A DNA stretch of 39,808 nt from a virus: positions 1 to 39,808 of the IMG/VR virus record IMGVR_UViG_3300013108_000255. One strand, written 5' to 3'. Below are positions 35,830-39,808 of the stretch, one piece after another. The translations under genes were made by a program, and so were the position numbers. The notes beneath the pieces were generated by a model, which had not been told where the DNA came from, searched no databases, and saw nothing but the letters and a program-made list of their open reading frames with translations. Positions within the stretch are counted from its first letter, which is position 1. The number at the start of each line of letters is the position of its first letter.

Positions 35830-36858
35830 ATGAATAAGAAAGAAATTAAAGAAGCGGTGTCTGGAGAAAAAGTAACTAAAGCTGCACAAAGTGGTAGTGG
35901 TAAAGAAGCTAAAGCTCAATTGAAAGATACGACTAAGAAAATTGACGATTTCCAAAAGACTGACGCTGACCAAGAGATTGTACCACCTAAATTTACACCA
36001 ACCGAAGAACAGCAAGAATATATCGAGGATATTGAGCGTGGTTTAGGTATGCAAGACTTAAGATACGATAATGAACCATCTGACGTGTATAAGGAAAGAC
36101 AAAAAAAAGCGATAGAGGGTGACTCAACTTTAGGTAATAAGACTACTGATGACCAAGAAAATGATGAATTTGGTAAGAAGTTTGCCGAAATTACTAAAAG
36201 ACGTGCTGAAAGGATGGATGCTGCTGAAGTAGCAACAATAGGTTTAGGTGACGATATTGAAACAGTACCTAAAGCTAAGAATCCTAAAACTAAAAAAATA
36301 GCATTAGAAAGTAAAAGAACAACAACTAAGTTAACCACTAAAACTGAAATAGGTGGTCTAGATAGGGCAATTTCACTTATTCCAGAAAACCTAAAGGTTG
36401 ATGGTAAGAAAGTTATTATGACTGACGGTAATGAAACTTATAAATTTAGATGGAATGGTGAGTTAAATGAAGTTGAGGTTCTTTTTAAAGAAAATAAAAA
36501 ACAAATTGCCGAATCTAAATCACAATTGGATAGATTCTTTAATCATAAGGTTGGTGATAAAACTGGCGCTTCAGTAATGACAGAAAAATTCAATATTGAT
36601 ATGTTAGCTAAGACTAGAAAAATATCTAAAGATATTACTAGAAAAACTATCAATGAATCAGTTAACGACGCAATTAAAAATGGTGACTTACCAAAACCAA
36701 AATATGGTAAAAACGCTAAAGTAAATTTAGTTGAGTCTGAAGGCACTAAAGTGGTTACTGCTATTAGTGCATATAAGAATGAAGATATTTTCACTTACGT
36801 TTATAAATTAGACGATGGTTCGAAAGTATTTGAATCAGATATAAAAGGTAGAATCTAA
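35830..36858 (+). CDS. Virion-like phage protein, unknown
   Basis: 342 residues, Lys/Glu-rich. It begins M-N-K-K-E-I-K-E-A-V, again with an I-K-E|A gp21-like site at 6-9. Residues about 50-105 contain Y-I-E-D-I-E-R-G-L-G-M-Q-D and V-Y-K-E-R-Q-K-K-A-I-E-G-D-S, a pattern I associate with uncharacterised marine T4-like phage proteins. Residues about 185-235 look like a small beta domain (Y-K-F-R-W-N-G-E). The C-terminal 40 residues form another beta unit. It follows the 33503 protein by 29 bases, with a promoter-like motif between, and a terminator follows. Confidence 0.74.
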   Translation: MNKKEIKEAVSGEKVTKAAQSGSGKEAKAQLKDTTKKIDDFQKTDADQEIVPPKFTPTEEQQEYIEDIERGLGMQDLRYDNEPSDVYKERQKKAIEGDSTLGNKTTDDQENDEFGKKFAEITKRRAERMDAAEVATIGLGDDIETVPKAKNPKTKKIALESKRTTTKLTTKTEIGGLDRAISLIPENLKVDGKKVIMTDGNETYKFRWNGELNEVEVLFKENKKQIAESKSQLDRFFNHKVGDKTGASVMTEKFNIDMLAKTRKISKDITRKTINESVNDAIKNGDLPKPKYGKNAKVNLVESEGTKVVTAISAYKNEDIFTYVYKLDDGSKVFESDIKGRI

Positions 36859-36882
36859 TCACCAAAATATATTTATCTTAAT

Positions 36883-36908
36883 AGCCTCGATGAAAATCGG
36901 GGCTTTTT
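36883..36908 (+). terminator. Rho-independent terminator closing the phage gene block
   Basis: A 9-bp stem with one G-U pair (36883-36891 with 36896-36904), a GAAA loop and a five-T run. Confidence 0.9.
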
Positions 36909-36910
36909 AT

Positions 36911-36941
36911 TTGTGTAATTAAAAAATTTACCTTATATTTG
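36911..36941 (+). promoter_or_regulatory. Bacteroidetes-type promoter upstream of the cassette array
   Basis: TTG at 36911-36913, 20 bases, then TATATTTG at 36934-36941. Predicted start is about 36945, next to the ATG at 36946 (leaderless). It is the only clear promoter before the array and could act like an integron Pc. Confidence 0.75.
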
Positions 36942-36945
36942 TGAT

Positions 36946-37125
36946 ATGGATTTATTCGACGAATATGATACACTTCCAGAAGATATTCAGAAGATTATAG
37001 ATGATTTTGACGTTTGTAAGGAATTATATCAAGAATGTTCCAAAATGGAGTACAAAATGTTAAAGAAGGGCTACACGTTTGAATATAGTTTGGATGGTAT
37101 TCCTTATCATTTAAGAAAGGTTTAA
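36946..37125 (+). CDS. Small acidic protein at the array boundary
   Basis: 59 residues: acidic N-terminus (M-D-L-F-D-E-Y-D), a helical middle with C-K-E-L-Y-Q-E-C, and a C-terminus with G-I-P-Y-H-L-R-K-V. No family recognised. Its stop codon forms part of the R'' box of the first attC-like site. Unlike the cassettes that follow, it has its own promoter, and no sequence complementary to that R'' box is visible at its 5' end. It may therefore be the resident phage gene into whose 3' hairpin the cassettes were inserted, rather than a cassette. Confidence 0.7.
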   Translation: MDLFDEYDTLPEDIQKIIDDFDVCKELYQECSKMEYKMLKKGYTFEYSLDGIPYHLRKV

Positions 37126-37172
37126 CGGTATAAGTAAATACCGTTTTAACGGAATTTAATTAATGTTATAAA
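37120..37172 (+). other. attC-like site A, doubling as terminator hairpin
   Basis: R'' TTAACG at 37122-37127 is complementary to R' GTTA at 37165-37168. The inner arms pair between GTAAATACCG (37134-37143) and CGGAATTTAA (37150-37159). The left part alone (37124-37131 with 37138-37145) also forms an 8-bp hairpin with a T run, a plausible terminator. The cut is expected between G37165 and T37166. It is the leftmost site seen and the only one without a matching upstream partner. Confidence 0.65.
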
Positions 37173-37182
37173 TAGTAAAATT

Positions 37183-37356
37183 ATGGATGAAAAGATATTA
37201 AGAACAATGAGACATATGGCTTGGAGTAGAGCAAAAGGAGAACTTGAAAGTATGTTAGATACTTACTGGAGTGGTAGTGCTGAAAAATTTAACACTATGA
37301 AAAAAACCATTGATGATTTCATTAATGATGTTGAAGACAACGGAAAGCAAGAATAA
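37183..37356 (+). CDS. Cassette 1 gene, hypothetical
   Basis: 57 residues, helical: M-R-H-M-A-W-S-R-A-K-G-E-L near the N-terminus and an acidic C-terminal helix. No family recognised. It starts 17 bases into its cassette after the context TAAAATTATG, which is shared by the genes of cassettes 4, 5 and 8. Its stop lies eight bases before the R'' box of site B. Short, single-gene, promoterless: a typical cassette ORF. Confidence 0.68.
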   Translation: MDEKILRTMRHMAWSRAKGELESMLDTYWSGSAEKFNTMKKTIDDFINDVEDNGKQE

Positions 37357-37364
37357 TTTTATTG

Positions 37365-37497
37365 TTTATAACGGCTAAGTATATGAAGCGGTGGCGATTA
37401 ATGGCTGATAGATTGCTAACTGTATAAAACTAAATTAAACCGCTAAAAGTGGTTAAGCAGACGTACAACGCCACTGATTTATATACAATGTTGTACG
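37365..37497 (+). other. attC-like site B (long type)
   Basis: R'' TTTATAAC at 37365-37372 is complementary to the start of its own cassette at 37165-37172. The outer arms pair between AAGTATATGAA and TTTATATAC, and an inner stem pairs GTGGCG (37391-37396) with CGCCAC (37469-37474). The terminal loop region includes the perfect hairpin AACCGCT/AGTGGTT at 37438-37454. The cut is at G37490/T37491. A second GTACAAC copy at 37463-37469 suggests past rearrangement. Confidence 0.75.
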
Positions 37498-37514
37498 CAG
37501 TTAAATTTACTACA

Positions 37515-37706
37515 ATGACACAAGGAAAAGCTAATGAGATTTTTGAAACAAAACTTGGACAACAACTTCTGAGTTTTTATGCAACTTCTGATGACCAAGT
37601 ATTTATTAGGTACAACGAAGCAGTTGCTCATACTAATGATATGATAAATGCAGTTGGTGGACAAGAGTTTGTTGATACAACAATAACTGAATGGTTTCCC
37701 GAATAA
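37515..37706 (+). CDS. Cassette 2 gene, hypothetical
   Basis: 63 residues from the ATG at 37515 (M-T-Q-G-K-A-N-E-I-F). Longer in-frame readings would start within the upstream attC site and are rejected. Sequence highlights: an N-terminal helix, F-I-R-Y-N-E-A-V, then a C-terminal G-G-Q-E-F-V-D-T-T-I-T-E-W-F. No family recognised. The stop codon is two bases before the R'' box of site C, the tight packing usual for integron cassettes. Confidence 0.68.
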   Translation: MTQGKANEIFETKLGQQLLSFYATSDDQVFIRYNEAVAHTNDMINAVGGQEFVDTTITEWFPE

Positions 37707-37708
37707 TT

Positions 37709-37766
37709 GCGTACAACAGTTAAAGTAAATGTCTGCCGTAGGTTGTATTTACATACGTGTTATGTT
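37709..37766 (+). other. attC-like site C
   Basis: R'' GCGTACAAC at 37709-37717 matches the reverse complement of its own cassette start (37490-37498). The inner arms pair over GTAAAT (37724-37729) with ATTTAC (37747-37752). The cut is at G37759/T37760, followed by TTATG. Confidence 0.82.
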
Positions 37767-37789
37767 TTGTTAAATGTAAATTGATTAAT

Positions 37790-38191
37790 ATGAAAAAATA
37801 TGTGCAGTTTAGTGAAATTGAAACTGAGTTCACTGAAAAATTAATAGAACTAGATAGAAAATTTTCTAATAAGTTAGAAACTGAAGAAGACTATATAAAA
37901 GATAGGGAAAATAAGTTTTTAGAGAATGGAGCTTTCCACTTAAATGATTTACCAGTATCTAGTATATTATTAAAACCTTCCGACTTACCAAACATAACTA
38001 AAGGAGATAGAGTTTTTTGGAGGTTAGGTCATTGGGAAGACTATGACCAACCATATAAATATTGGTCTAAAACTGATTGGTTTAAAGAGGTTGATGACCC
38101 AATATCTACCTTTATTGATTCACCTTATAAGGATAAATACACCCAAGAGTACGTTAACAGACAAGAGTTTTATATACTGAAAAATAATTAA
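37790..38191 (+). CDS. Cassette 3 gene, hypothetical
   Basis: 133 residues from the ATG at 37790 (M-K-K-Y-V-Q-F-S). The longer reading from 37757 would start inside the recombination site. The first 55 residues are charged helices (L-I-E-L-D-R-K-F-S-N-K-L). The second half is rich in Trp and Tyr (V-F-W-R-L-G-H-W-E-D-Y, Y-K-Y-W-S-K-T-D-W-F). No signal peptide or known catalytic motif. This is the largest cassette protein here. Its stop codon overlaps the R'' box of site D. Confidence 0.7.
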   Translation: MKKYVQFSEIETEFTEKLIELDRKFSNKLETEEDYIKDRENKFLENGAFHLNDLPVSSILLKPSDLPNITKGDRVFWRLGHWEDYDQPYKYWSKTDWFKEVDDPISTFIDSPYKDKYTQEYVNRQEFYILKNN

Positions 38192-38284
38192 ACATAACGG
38201 TTTGGGTATGTGTAGTTGCCGATAAGAAATACACTTTAAATTAAACAACGGACTTAGCAATAACTTATAGCCGTTGTTATATAT
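38190..38284 (+). other. attC-like site D (long type)
   Basis: R'' AAACATAAC at 38190-38198 is the reverse complement of its own cassette start (37759-37767). The central loop carries GATAAGAA...CTTTAAATTAAAC, closely like site E. The cut is at G38276/T38277. Confidence 0.8.
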
Positions 38285-38294
38285 CTGTAAAATT

Positions 38295-38462
38295 ATGGAA
38301 GGATTAAAATTACAAGTAGCAACATTTGATAATGTTACAGGCGATAACGCCACAGAATGCAATGAGTTTTTAAAAGTGATAGGCGATAAGGCTAAAGATG
38401 TAAATACACACTATAACACTATACTTGGTGGCGTGATTTATATAGTAATATATTTTGATTAA
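38295..38462 (+). CDS. Cassette 4 gene, hypothetical
   Basis: 55 residues from the ATG at 38295, which follows the shared TAAAATTATG context. An in-frame TTG within the R' box (38274) is rejected. N-terminus M-E-G-L-K-L-Q-V-A-T-F, then N-E-F-L-K-V-I-G-D-K-A-K-D-V-N and a hydrophobic C-terminal strand G-G-V-I-Y-I-V-I-Y-F. Probably a small alpha/beta protein; no family recognised. Stop eight bases before the R'' box. Confidence 0.66.
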   Translation: MEGLKLQVATFDNVTGDNATECNEFLKVIGDKAKDVNTHYNTILGGVIYIVIYFD

Positions 38463-38470
38463 TTTTATTG

Positions 38471-38565
38471 TATATAACGACTTGACTATGATTTGTAGCT
38501 AATAGAACAAACTTTAAATTATGTACAATAAACGAGGGTATAAATTCATAGCCCTTGTTAGCAAT
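38471..38565 (+). other. attC-like site E (long type)
   Basis: R'' TATATAAC at 38471-38478 is the reverse complement of its own cassette start (38276-38283). The arms pair over CTATGA (38485-38490) with TTCATAG (38545-38551). The loop carries ACTTTAAATTA as in site D. The cut is at G38557/T38558. Confidence 0.82.
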
Positions 38566-38576
38566 CTTTTAAAATT

Positions 38577-38741
38577 ATGACAGAGAAAATAATAAAATTA
38601 GAAGTAGAATTTAAAATCAGCTATGAAAGTAAGGCTGATTTACAGGAAGGTATTAGGATAGCTAAATACCATGTTTTAAGTGATGAAACCCACATGAGCA
38701 ACATAACTGTTAAGCCTTTAAAAGCAAAGAAGATTAAATAA
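38577..38741 (+). CDS. Cassette 5 gene, hypothetical
   Basis: 54 residues, too short for a typical gene finder: M-T-E-K-I-I-K-L-E-V-E-F, then Y-E-S-K-A-D-L-Q-E-G-I-R-I-A-K-Y and a basic tail ending K-A-K-K-I-K. The start follows the shared TAAAATTATG context 19 bases into the cassette. The pattern of a strand, a helix with E-G-I-R-I-A, and a basic end could be a small nucleic-acid-binding or antitoxin-like fold, but no family is recognised. Its stop is nine bases before the R'' box of site F. Confidence 0.66.
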   Translation: MTEKIIKLEVEFKISYESKADLQEGIRIAKYHVLSDETHMSNITVKPLKAKKIK

Positions 38742-38750
38742 TTTTTATTG

Positions 38751-38814
38751 TTGCTAACGATTAGTATATGAAATGTGGAGCAAAGCGGAATTTTTTATAT
38801 ACCGTGTTATGCTC
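38751..38814 (+). other. attC-like site F
   Basis: R'' TTGCTAAC at 38751-38758 is the reverse complement of its own cassette start (38557-38564). The arms pair over TATAT (38765-38769 with 38797-38801). The cut is at G38806/T38807. Confidence 0.82.
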
Positions 38815-38831
38815 TTTTAAATTTAGATGAA

Positions 38832-39020
38832 ATGGAAAGAAACTACAAGGCAGTAAAATTTTTAGATAAGTGGTACGTGCAATATGAATACTACAATAGA
38901 CTAAAAGAAAAATGGCTAAAAAAATTATTTAAAGATTGGAATCGTGAAGATTTAGAATTTCACACTAAGGAAGATGCTGATAATTGGATTAAAGCAAGGA
39001 TTGAAATAATGAATATCTAA
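38832..39020 (+). CDS. Cassette 6 gene, hypothetical
   Basis: 62 residues from the ATG at 38832 (M-E-R-N-Y-K-A-V-K-F). A longer reading from a GTG at 38775 would start within site F. Very Trp/Tyr/Lys-rich: D-K-W-Y-V-Q-Y-E-Y-Y-N-R-L, E-K-W-L-K-K-L-F-K-D-W, then H-T-K-E-D-A-D-N-W-I-K-A-R. No family recognised. The stop is two bases before R'' of site G. Confidence 0.68.
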   Translation: MERNYKAVKFLDKWYVQYEYYNRLKEKWLKKLFKDWNREDLEFHTKEDADNWIKARIEIMNI

Positions 39021-39022
39021 TT

Positions 39023-39080
39023 GAGCATAACGGTTTGAATAAAAAACTGTTTTAATATTTTTTATTTATTGTTATAATTT
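39023..39080 (+). other. attC-like site G
   Basis: R'' GAGCATAAC at 39023-39031 is the exact reverse complement of its own cassette start (38806-38814). The arms pair over AATAAAAAA (38-46 past 39000) with TTTTTTATT. The cut is at G39071/T39072. Confidence 0.85.
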
Positions 39081-39089
39081 GTAATTGGA

Positions 39090-39281
39090 ATGGAATTAGA
39101 AAAATACTTAATTGACGTAGGGATAAGAGCCTCAGACTACGGACACGAAATAAGCGATGAGGAAAGAAAGCAATTAAAAAATAATGTTGAGTACTTTAAA
39201 AAATGTTATAAAAAAGGATTGAGTGCATATAAGGCTCTTCTTTTCTTTCCTGACTATCTTAATGGAGATTATGAATTATAA
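39090..39281 (+). CDS. Cassette 7 first gene, hypothetical
   Basis: 63 residues: M-E-L-E-K-Y-L-I-D-V-G, then H-E-I-S-D-E-E-R-K-Q-L-K-N-N and Y-K-A-L-L-F-F-P-D-Y-L. Helical; no family recognised. It starts 19 bases into the cassette. Its last codons (39274-39281, AATTATAA) equal the R'' box expected for this cassette except for the final C, but no complete attC follows. Instead a second gene begins 26 bases later. Confidence 0.66.
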   Translation: MELEKYLIDVGIRASDYGHEISDEERKQLKNNVEYFKKCYKKGLSAYKALLFFPDYLNGDYEL

Positions 39282-39283
39282 TG
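39274..39283 (+). other. Possible remnant R'' box of a lost attC site
   Basis: The cassette begins G+TTATAATT at 39071. The complement expected at its end is AATTATAAC. Here AATTATAAT is seen directly at the gene's stop, one base different, with no L or R' boxes after it. It may be the scar of a fused cassette. Confidence 0.4.
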
Positions 39284-39307
39284 TATAAATGTAAACTTTG
39301 AAGCAAT

Positions 39308-39520
39308 ATGAAGGAGAATATTGATAAAATAATAGATGATTTAATTAATCACGAAATAAGTAAACAACAGGCTAAAGCAATGCTTTTGAGTTTACATAAT
39401 GTTAGTGGTAGCGACTTTATATTTGACCATAGTTCTAAACTTGAACCAGAACTACCACAAATAAAAACTCAATTACCTCTTAAATTAGTTGATGGAAGAT
39501 TAACTTATGACTTTGATTGA
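39308..39520 (+). CDS. Cassette 7 second gene, hypothetical
   Basis: 70 residues: M-K-E-N-I-D-K-I-I-D-D-L-I-N-H-E-I-S-K-Q-Q-A-K-A (a helical start), then a polar linker and a C-terminal strand V-D-G-R-L-T-Y-D-F. No family recognised. The start follows GCAAT. Its stop is five bases before site H, whose R'' box does not match the start of the cassette at 39072, so this gene probably came from a different cassette. Confidence 0.66.
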   Translation: MKENIDKIIDDLINHEISKQQAKAMLLSLHNVSGSDFIFDHSSKLEPELPQIKTQLPLKLVDGRLTYDFD

Positions 39521-39525
39521 GTTAC

Positions 39526-39583
39526 CACTAACGCTAAGTATATGAGGCTGTACTTGTATGCCTTCATATACAATGTTAGCATT
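39526..39583 (+). other. attC-like site H
   Basis: R'' CCACTAAC at 39525-39532 and R' GTTAGCA at 39575-39581. The arms pair over GTATATGA (39538-39545) with TCATATAC (39564-39571). The cut is at G39575/T39576. Its R'' does not match the start of the cassette at 39072. Confidence 0.82.
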
Positions 39584-39607
39584 AGTACGGATTTAAAGAT
39601 AAAAATT

Positions 39608-39808
39608 ATGAAATACGATTTACCAATAGATTATACAAAACTGCATTGGACTGAACGCAGACAAGTTAGAGAGCAGTATGTTGAAGAGCAAGAACATAAA
39701 TGCTATTACTGTGGATGCAGTTTAAAAGAACCTGCACCTAAACACATAACAGATAAAAAAATAAATTGGAAGTTATTTCCTGTCAATTTCTTGAAATACC
39801 CAATACAC
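39608..39808 (+). CDS. Cassette 8 gene, HNH-type endonuclease-like, cut by window end
   Basis: The first 67 residues are in the window: M-K-Y-D-L-P-I-D-Y-T-K-L-H-W, then R-R-Q-V-R-E-Q-Y and H-K-C-Y-Y-C-G-C-S-L with a C-x2-C pair at 32 and 35. The opening arginine-rich helix followed by a Cys pair is like the N-terminus of HNH endonucleases, whose histidine-containing core would lie beyond the window. The start follows the shared AAAAATTATG context. The family call is tentative because the catalytic half is missing. Confidence 0.62.
   Translation, partial: MKYDLPIDYTKLHWTERRQVREQYVEEQEHKCYYCGCSLKEPAPKHITDKKINWKLFPVNFLKYPIH

Follow-up and report, generated by a model that had tools for sequence, protein, structure and literature searches.

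We analysed a stretch of viral DNA of 39,808 bases (hereafter, the window), which is the complete IMG/VR record IMGVR_UViG_3300013108_000255; the record is classed as linear and is probably a fragment. The genes in the window include SbcC/SbcD, a primase, a sigma factor, RuvC and a phage-type amidase/endolysin. The closest relatives found through SbcC are 44-52% identical, and their contigs reach 353 and 380 kb; the window is therefore probably one part of a large phage genome. We take the phage to be a tailed one, with a host probably in the phylum Bacteroidota. A search for a close isolated phage returned none, and Rfam gave zero matches to the window.

Towards the end of the window, a block of phage genes closes with an intrinsic terminator and is followed by a run of small genes on the same strand that are separated by attC sites (Table 1). 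A promoter-like sequence between the terminator and the first small gene is a candidate only; we take it to resemble the Bacteroidota consensus TTTG/TAnnTTTG. The first gene has homologs, 42-44% identical, on Marinobacter plasmids. The array has at least nine attC sites and continues off the contig end.

Table 1. Features of the array region, in window coordinates (CM, covariance model)
Feature	Position	Strand	Basis or remark
Conserved phage gene upstream of array	35830..36858	+	Six related phage contigs have syntenic homologs
Intrinsic terminator between phage gene block and array	36883..36904	+	9-pair stem and T tail; 0.1 expected from shuffles
Bacteroidota-type promoter-like sequence, TTTG-N20-TATATTTG	36910..36941	+	Sequence only
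First gene, 59 aa, ends in attC0	36946..37125	+	ORF; without own cassette start/boundary
attC0	37118..37172	+	R' crossover 37165; CM R1 39.4 bits, E 5e-7
Cassette 1	37165..37372	+	ORF 37183-37356; signature; L051 homolog ends exactly at R'' TTTATAACG
attC1 (long)	37364..37497	+	CM E 2e-4; 90% identical attC in L069
Cassette 2	37490..37717	+	ORF 37515-37706; exact 10-nt signature
attC2	37709..37766	+	Weak CM match, E 0.36; signature on both sides
Cassette 3	37759..38198	+	ORF 37790-38191, 133 aa, without known family; 9-nt signature
attC3	38190..38283	+	CM E 3e-4
Cassette 4	38276..38478	+	ORF 38295-38462; 8-nt signature
attC4	38470..38564	+	CM E 0.014; holds short leader frame MYNKRGYKFIALV
Cassette 5	38557..38758	+	ORF 38577-38741; 8-nt signature
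attC5	38750..38813	+	CM E 6e-8; near-identical attC in L075
Cassette 6	38806..39031	+	ORF 38832-39020; 9-nt signature
attC6	39023..39078	+	CM 54.1 bits, E 2e-10
Cassette 7	39071..39282	+	ORF 39090-39281; degenerate R'' AATTATAAT; signature with C to T at core
attC7, coding type	39274..39408	+	Stem 39289-39305/39381-39397 (inverted repeat); homologous leaders in other phages
attC7 leader	39308-39403	+	32 codons, the last being GTT, the R' crossover at 39401
Fusion ORF, attC7 leader and cassette 8 body, 70 aa	39308..39520	+	Frame test
Cassette 8 body	39401..39532	+	Exact 10-nt signature GTTAGTGGTA/TACCACTAAC
attC8	39524..39582	+	CM E 2e-7
Cassette 9	39575..39808	+	Endonuclease VII-like gene from 39608, cut by contig end

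Identification of the attC sites

Exact signatures of 8-10 nt, in which each cassette start pairs with the R'' that ends the same cassette, chain six consecutive cassettes (starts at 37165, 37490, 37759, 38276, 38557, and 38806). Shuffled sequences gave chains of at most three (500 shuffles of the 3 kb region) or four (50 shuffles of the whole window). The cut-off was set at 8 nt or more because a minimum of 7 nt gives chance chains as long as the real one. When starts were paired with R'' for the eight cassettes having both ends in the window, the true assignment was the single best of 40,320 permutations.

A covariance model was built from 32 attC sites of other viral contigs, leaving out the window sequences and the two contigs that share attC1 and attC5. 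Its consensus has 14 pairs, 8 of them with compensatory changes, and the AAC and GTT columns are invariant in the viral set. The model search, proposed as a check in an earlier note on this DNA, placed its seven best matches in the window (in rank order attC6, 5, 8, 0, 1, 3 and 4; E from 2e-10 to 0.014) on the plus strand and within 37118-39582, with nothing outside the array at E < 0.05. Two further sites, attC2 and attC7, are supported by signature and stem; the latter was missed by the model and found through its stem, its signature and homologous sites elsewhere. Searching IMG/VR with two sequence probes brought up about 90 stretches, in which the longest arrays have about 22 cassettes; the site counts are lower bounds from a sample biased by probes of particular attC sequences. 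The attC-bearing viral loci contain 137 sites, against 2 in shuffles.

The array is an integron cassette array without an integrase (CALIN). Its attC sites are clustered (seven by the model and two by signature and stem, where at least two define a CALIN), they have R'' (..AAC) and R' (GTT..) cores with a covarying L''/L' stem, and cassette starts are complementary to their own 3' R''. The pair of intI and attI that marks a complete integron was not found beside the array on this contig, itself a fragment, and neither an integron integrase gene, which the earlier note had proposed to look for, nor any tyrosine recombinase was found in the window. That note had described attC-like sites with reciprocal signatures and had read them as integron-type cassettes on a phage, and the signature chains, the permutation test and the model bear this out. 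It had also placed the array in the right region, but the array begins earlier, with the first gene and attC0.

In loci L036-L095, cassette start and R'' pair at positions 1-10 and again at 12-14; at position 11, where the pairing is almost always interrupted, a T stands opposite G or T, and only 5% are paired, which is below chance.

Reading frames within attC sites

Integrons are thought to shuffle whole genes. Many of the phage attC sites, however, appear to be coding, a feature that the earlier note overlooked and that is the new point here, phage CALINs themselves being already known. An internal ATG with a frame running at least 20 codons past R' is present in 44 of 134 unique sites, and GTT is a codon in 33. 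The clearest class has AAGGCATTACATATAG..GTT on its 3' side (the KALHI class): the ATG lies 48-69 nt upstream of GTT, at a multiple of three, in 26/26 unique sites. The frame is open for at least 20 codons into the next cassette in 25 of these, and the remaining one meets the contig end. In the two other frames this interval has no ATG. In a second class, found in other phages, the leaders are exactly 32 codons long and 28-50% identical to the attC7 leader. The relative G072 has the same kind of leader as attC7 joined to a different body. At random GTT sites, many of which lie in genes, frame-0 leaders also exceed those in other frames, and the weight is therefore placed on the KALHI class and the leader families.

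One body of about 50 aa (the SHST body; 48% identical, E 2e-18) follows a leader of 32 aa in L084, whereas in L049 an unrelated leader of 50 aa precedes it; the joint is at the same residue in both. Leader exchange is claimed for this body only, because bodies with a RELL motif look alike but gave weak pairwise BLAST matches. Two cultured phages, P12002L and P12002S, have annotated proteins that start inside such sites.

These frames suggest that attC sites may be exon-like. The site would supply the start codon and an N-terminal module, the next cassette would supply the rest, and the crossover would fall in frame at Val. Integron recombination in Bacteroidota phages would then be a natural form of combinatorial protein assembly, probably making small anti-defence or takeover proteins. 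We favour this reading, with considerable reserve. The frames could instead be a by-product of a process in which translation reopens the hairpin, by termination and re-initiation, and the next protein starts at its own codon. Short ORFs in attC sites that aid downstream translation are already known (PMC8876359), the attC4 leader frame crosses R' and, as we read the sequence, has its stop at the ATG with which the next gene begins, and a Met lies within ten residues in 14 of 47 bodies. There is no Met at all, however, in 16 of the 47. The 25 open frames of the KALHI class run without a stop into bodies most of which are unrelated, whereas the alternative frames tend to close early, and one leader family is fixed at 32 codons with a codon-like substitution pattern (404/318/462). 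We regard the by-product explanation as unlikely.

The ORF-11, ORF-17 and ORF-18 of attI1, like the short attC ORFs, are translation signals inside a recombination site that assist the following cassette, and ORF-11 and ORF-18 extend over the crossover (PMC8876359). All of these work through translational coupling and terminate shortly past the crossover. In contrast, the frame described here goes on to form the main protein, and it lies in an attC, which travels with the cassettes. Nivina et al. are said to have designed, in 2020, attC sites that encode protein linkers for domain shuffling. Those sites also lie within a reading frame; they are synthetic, whereas the present ones are natural and widespread. 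The coding attC sites can be read as natural integron-borne shuffling of protein N-termini, and the open-access literature gave no report of an attC encoding the N-terminus of the next cassette's protein. If the exon-like reading is true, integrons shuffle protein parts, and do so in viruses that need a fast answer to host defences.

A GTG frame at 37449-37706 of the window begins in attC1 and enters cassette 2 across R', in a phase that divides GTT between two codons (YTM|L). This second phase recurs at several other attC sites (YTL|L), which perhaps form another leader class.

Exchange of cassettes between phages

Cassette 9 encodes a protein 91% identical to one in L031, an unrelated 36 kb phage with a terminase; the full L031 protein matches Pfam Endonuclease_7. 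The endonuclease VII cassette has different neighbours in the two phages. Similarity begins at the crossover GTTAGCATTAGTACGG, at the same cassette start, which fits movement with a G|TT boundary. Homologs in three other viral contigs are without attC, and relatives of the gene are common in Vibrio and Pseudomonas phages. Cassette 1 has a homolog in L051 (71 kb contig; 78% DNA identity), where R'' is kept and the sequences diverge just after it, into a different stem. The counterpart of attC1 in L069 (69 kb contig) accompanies another gene, and that of attC5 in L075 (71 kb contig) lies between other genes with 98% identity over 82 nt. Matches in array-versus-array BLAST typically start at R'' and stop at R', so that families of attC are common to many genes.

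Of the two sister lytic phages, P12002S has three cassettes that are absent from P12002L (L124:2717-3811 versus L123:2717). The breakpoints are not at R' but within the half of attC formed by R''/L'', a part in which the flanking attC sites are alike. Since crossover at R' cannot directly give such breakpoints, homologous recombination between attC repeats is probably involved in the exchange as well. The earlier note's view of the cassettes as integrase products suits the boundary in L031 but not these breakpoints.

The same note had supposed a built-in exchange system. The results give no support for one, as the phage contig is without an integrase and no integron integrase was found in 40 attC-bearing viral records; a search for tyrosine recombinases in 18 shorter attC-bearing records also found none. 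Exact attC1 and attC8 patterns had no match in IMG/VR or GTDB genomes, and a host integron was not found with so narrow a pattern, the GTDB search consisting of one such pattern and one protein. Among Bacteroidota that have been sequenced, complete integrons are reported to be very rare (Salinibacter ruber M1; IntegronFinder 2.0 survey, PMC9024848). The abundance of cassettes in probable Bacteroidota phages suggests, given this rarity, a large unseen pool of integrons.

The array, its signatures and covarying stems, the sharing between phages, the reading frames and the leader exchange were computed here, and the following explanation is built on them. The terminator would end the phage gene block, and a host-type promoter with the first gene, ending in attC0, would head the array. 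In an infected cell, the integrase of a host or co-resident integron may act in trans on folded bottom strands of attC, inserting or removing cassettes, and similar attC repeats may recombine, also swapping pieces. A large subset of attC would be coding, the variable part of the site holding the start codon and the leader peptide. Translation would take the crossover G|TT as a codon for Val and go on into the body supplied by the next cassette, often without a start of its own, so that cassette movement would give a new in-frame fusion protein. We put the probability of this explanation as a whole, an integrase-less phage array served in trans and with a coding subset of attC, at roughly 0.8.

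We consider it very unlikely that homologous recombination alone, without any integron integrase, accounts for the exchange, the hairpins being ordinary repeats or a family of small units that have inverted ends and resemble transposons. Inverted repeats do bound the cassettes, the breakpoints between P12002L and P12002S and in L051 fall in R''/L'', and an integrase was not seen. The conserved AAC/GTT cores, asymmetric spacers and single orientation of the sites argue against such units, as does the boundary at GTT in L031. Moreover, a P12002L attC recombines with attI1 through IntI1 (Qi et al., 2023; PMC9892861), and the P12002L sites match the covariance model built here.

Phage lineage, cargo and known systems

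In six relatives, a conserved block of phage genes comes after the homolog of orf35830, and there is no array. The relatives G072 (162 kb) and G067 (161 kb) have attC arrays; those of G072 are at three places, one just beyond the conserved phage block (L129, L130, L131; the record behind L119). No attC arrays were found in G001 and G007 (353 and 380 kb contigs). The comparison of related genomes, suggested in advance, thus finds that the presence, absence and place of arrays vary within one phage lineage. Of the attC-bearing viral records that were examined, 19 have a terminase gene; the remaining records have none in the part covered, and some may not be viral. An assembly join with a host integron at about 36860-37170 would agree with the position of the array at the contig end, the conserved phage genes directly after the orf35830 homolog in G001-G007 and the plasmid homologs of the first gene, but it is very unlikely, because G072 and G067, of the same lineage, carry such arrays; the conserved block lies directly left of one G072 array, GC is alike on both sides (0.308 and 0.296), and the endonuclease VII cassette is found inside another phage contig.

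The cargo that can be recognised in related phage arrays consists mainly of DNA methyltransferases and Mom: 93 cassette ORFs of at least 75 aa include about ten DNA methyltransferases of several families and one Mom, and most of the remainder are without a family. The methyltransferases and Mom fit a role in protection from restriction, which would benefit the phage and has been suggested earlier (Qi et al., 2023; PMC9892861). The expectation of anti-defence cargo agrees with these arrays. In the window itself, Pfam and PHROGs gave no function for the cassette proteins, endonuclease VII being the only recognisable family, and the 133 aa cassette 3 protein had no homologs among plasmids, phages and IMG/VR.

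Sites of the attC type in phages, which the earlier note took to be sparsely reported, have been described as CALINs with functional attC sites in 21 phages (Qi et al., 2023; PMC9892861), among them P12002L, a phage of Polaribacter in the Bacteroidota. Those CALINs resemble the present one in being integrase-less attC arrays, in virulent phages, with methyltransferase cargo. The differences are that the array described here belongs to a large-genome phage lineage with long arrays in related contigs, that the same cassette occurs in unrelated phages, and that attC sites appear to be coding; the main text of Qi et al. mentions no start codon. The superintegron of Vibrio cholerae and other sedentary chromosomal integrons also have many cassettes and families of similar attC; unlike these, the present array is phage-borne, and neither intI nor attI was found with it. 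P12002L also encodes a fusion protein that is related to those of the coding attC sites. In the same phage, a complete ORF of 44 codons (L123:2760-2894, annotated gp57) apparently lies wholly within one attC.
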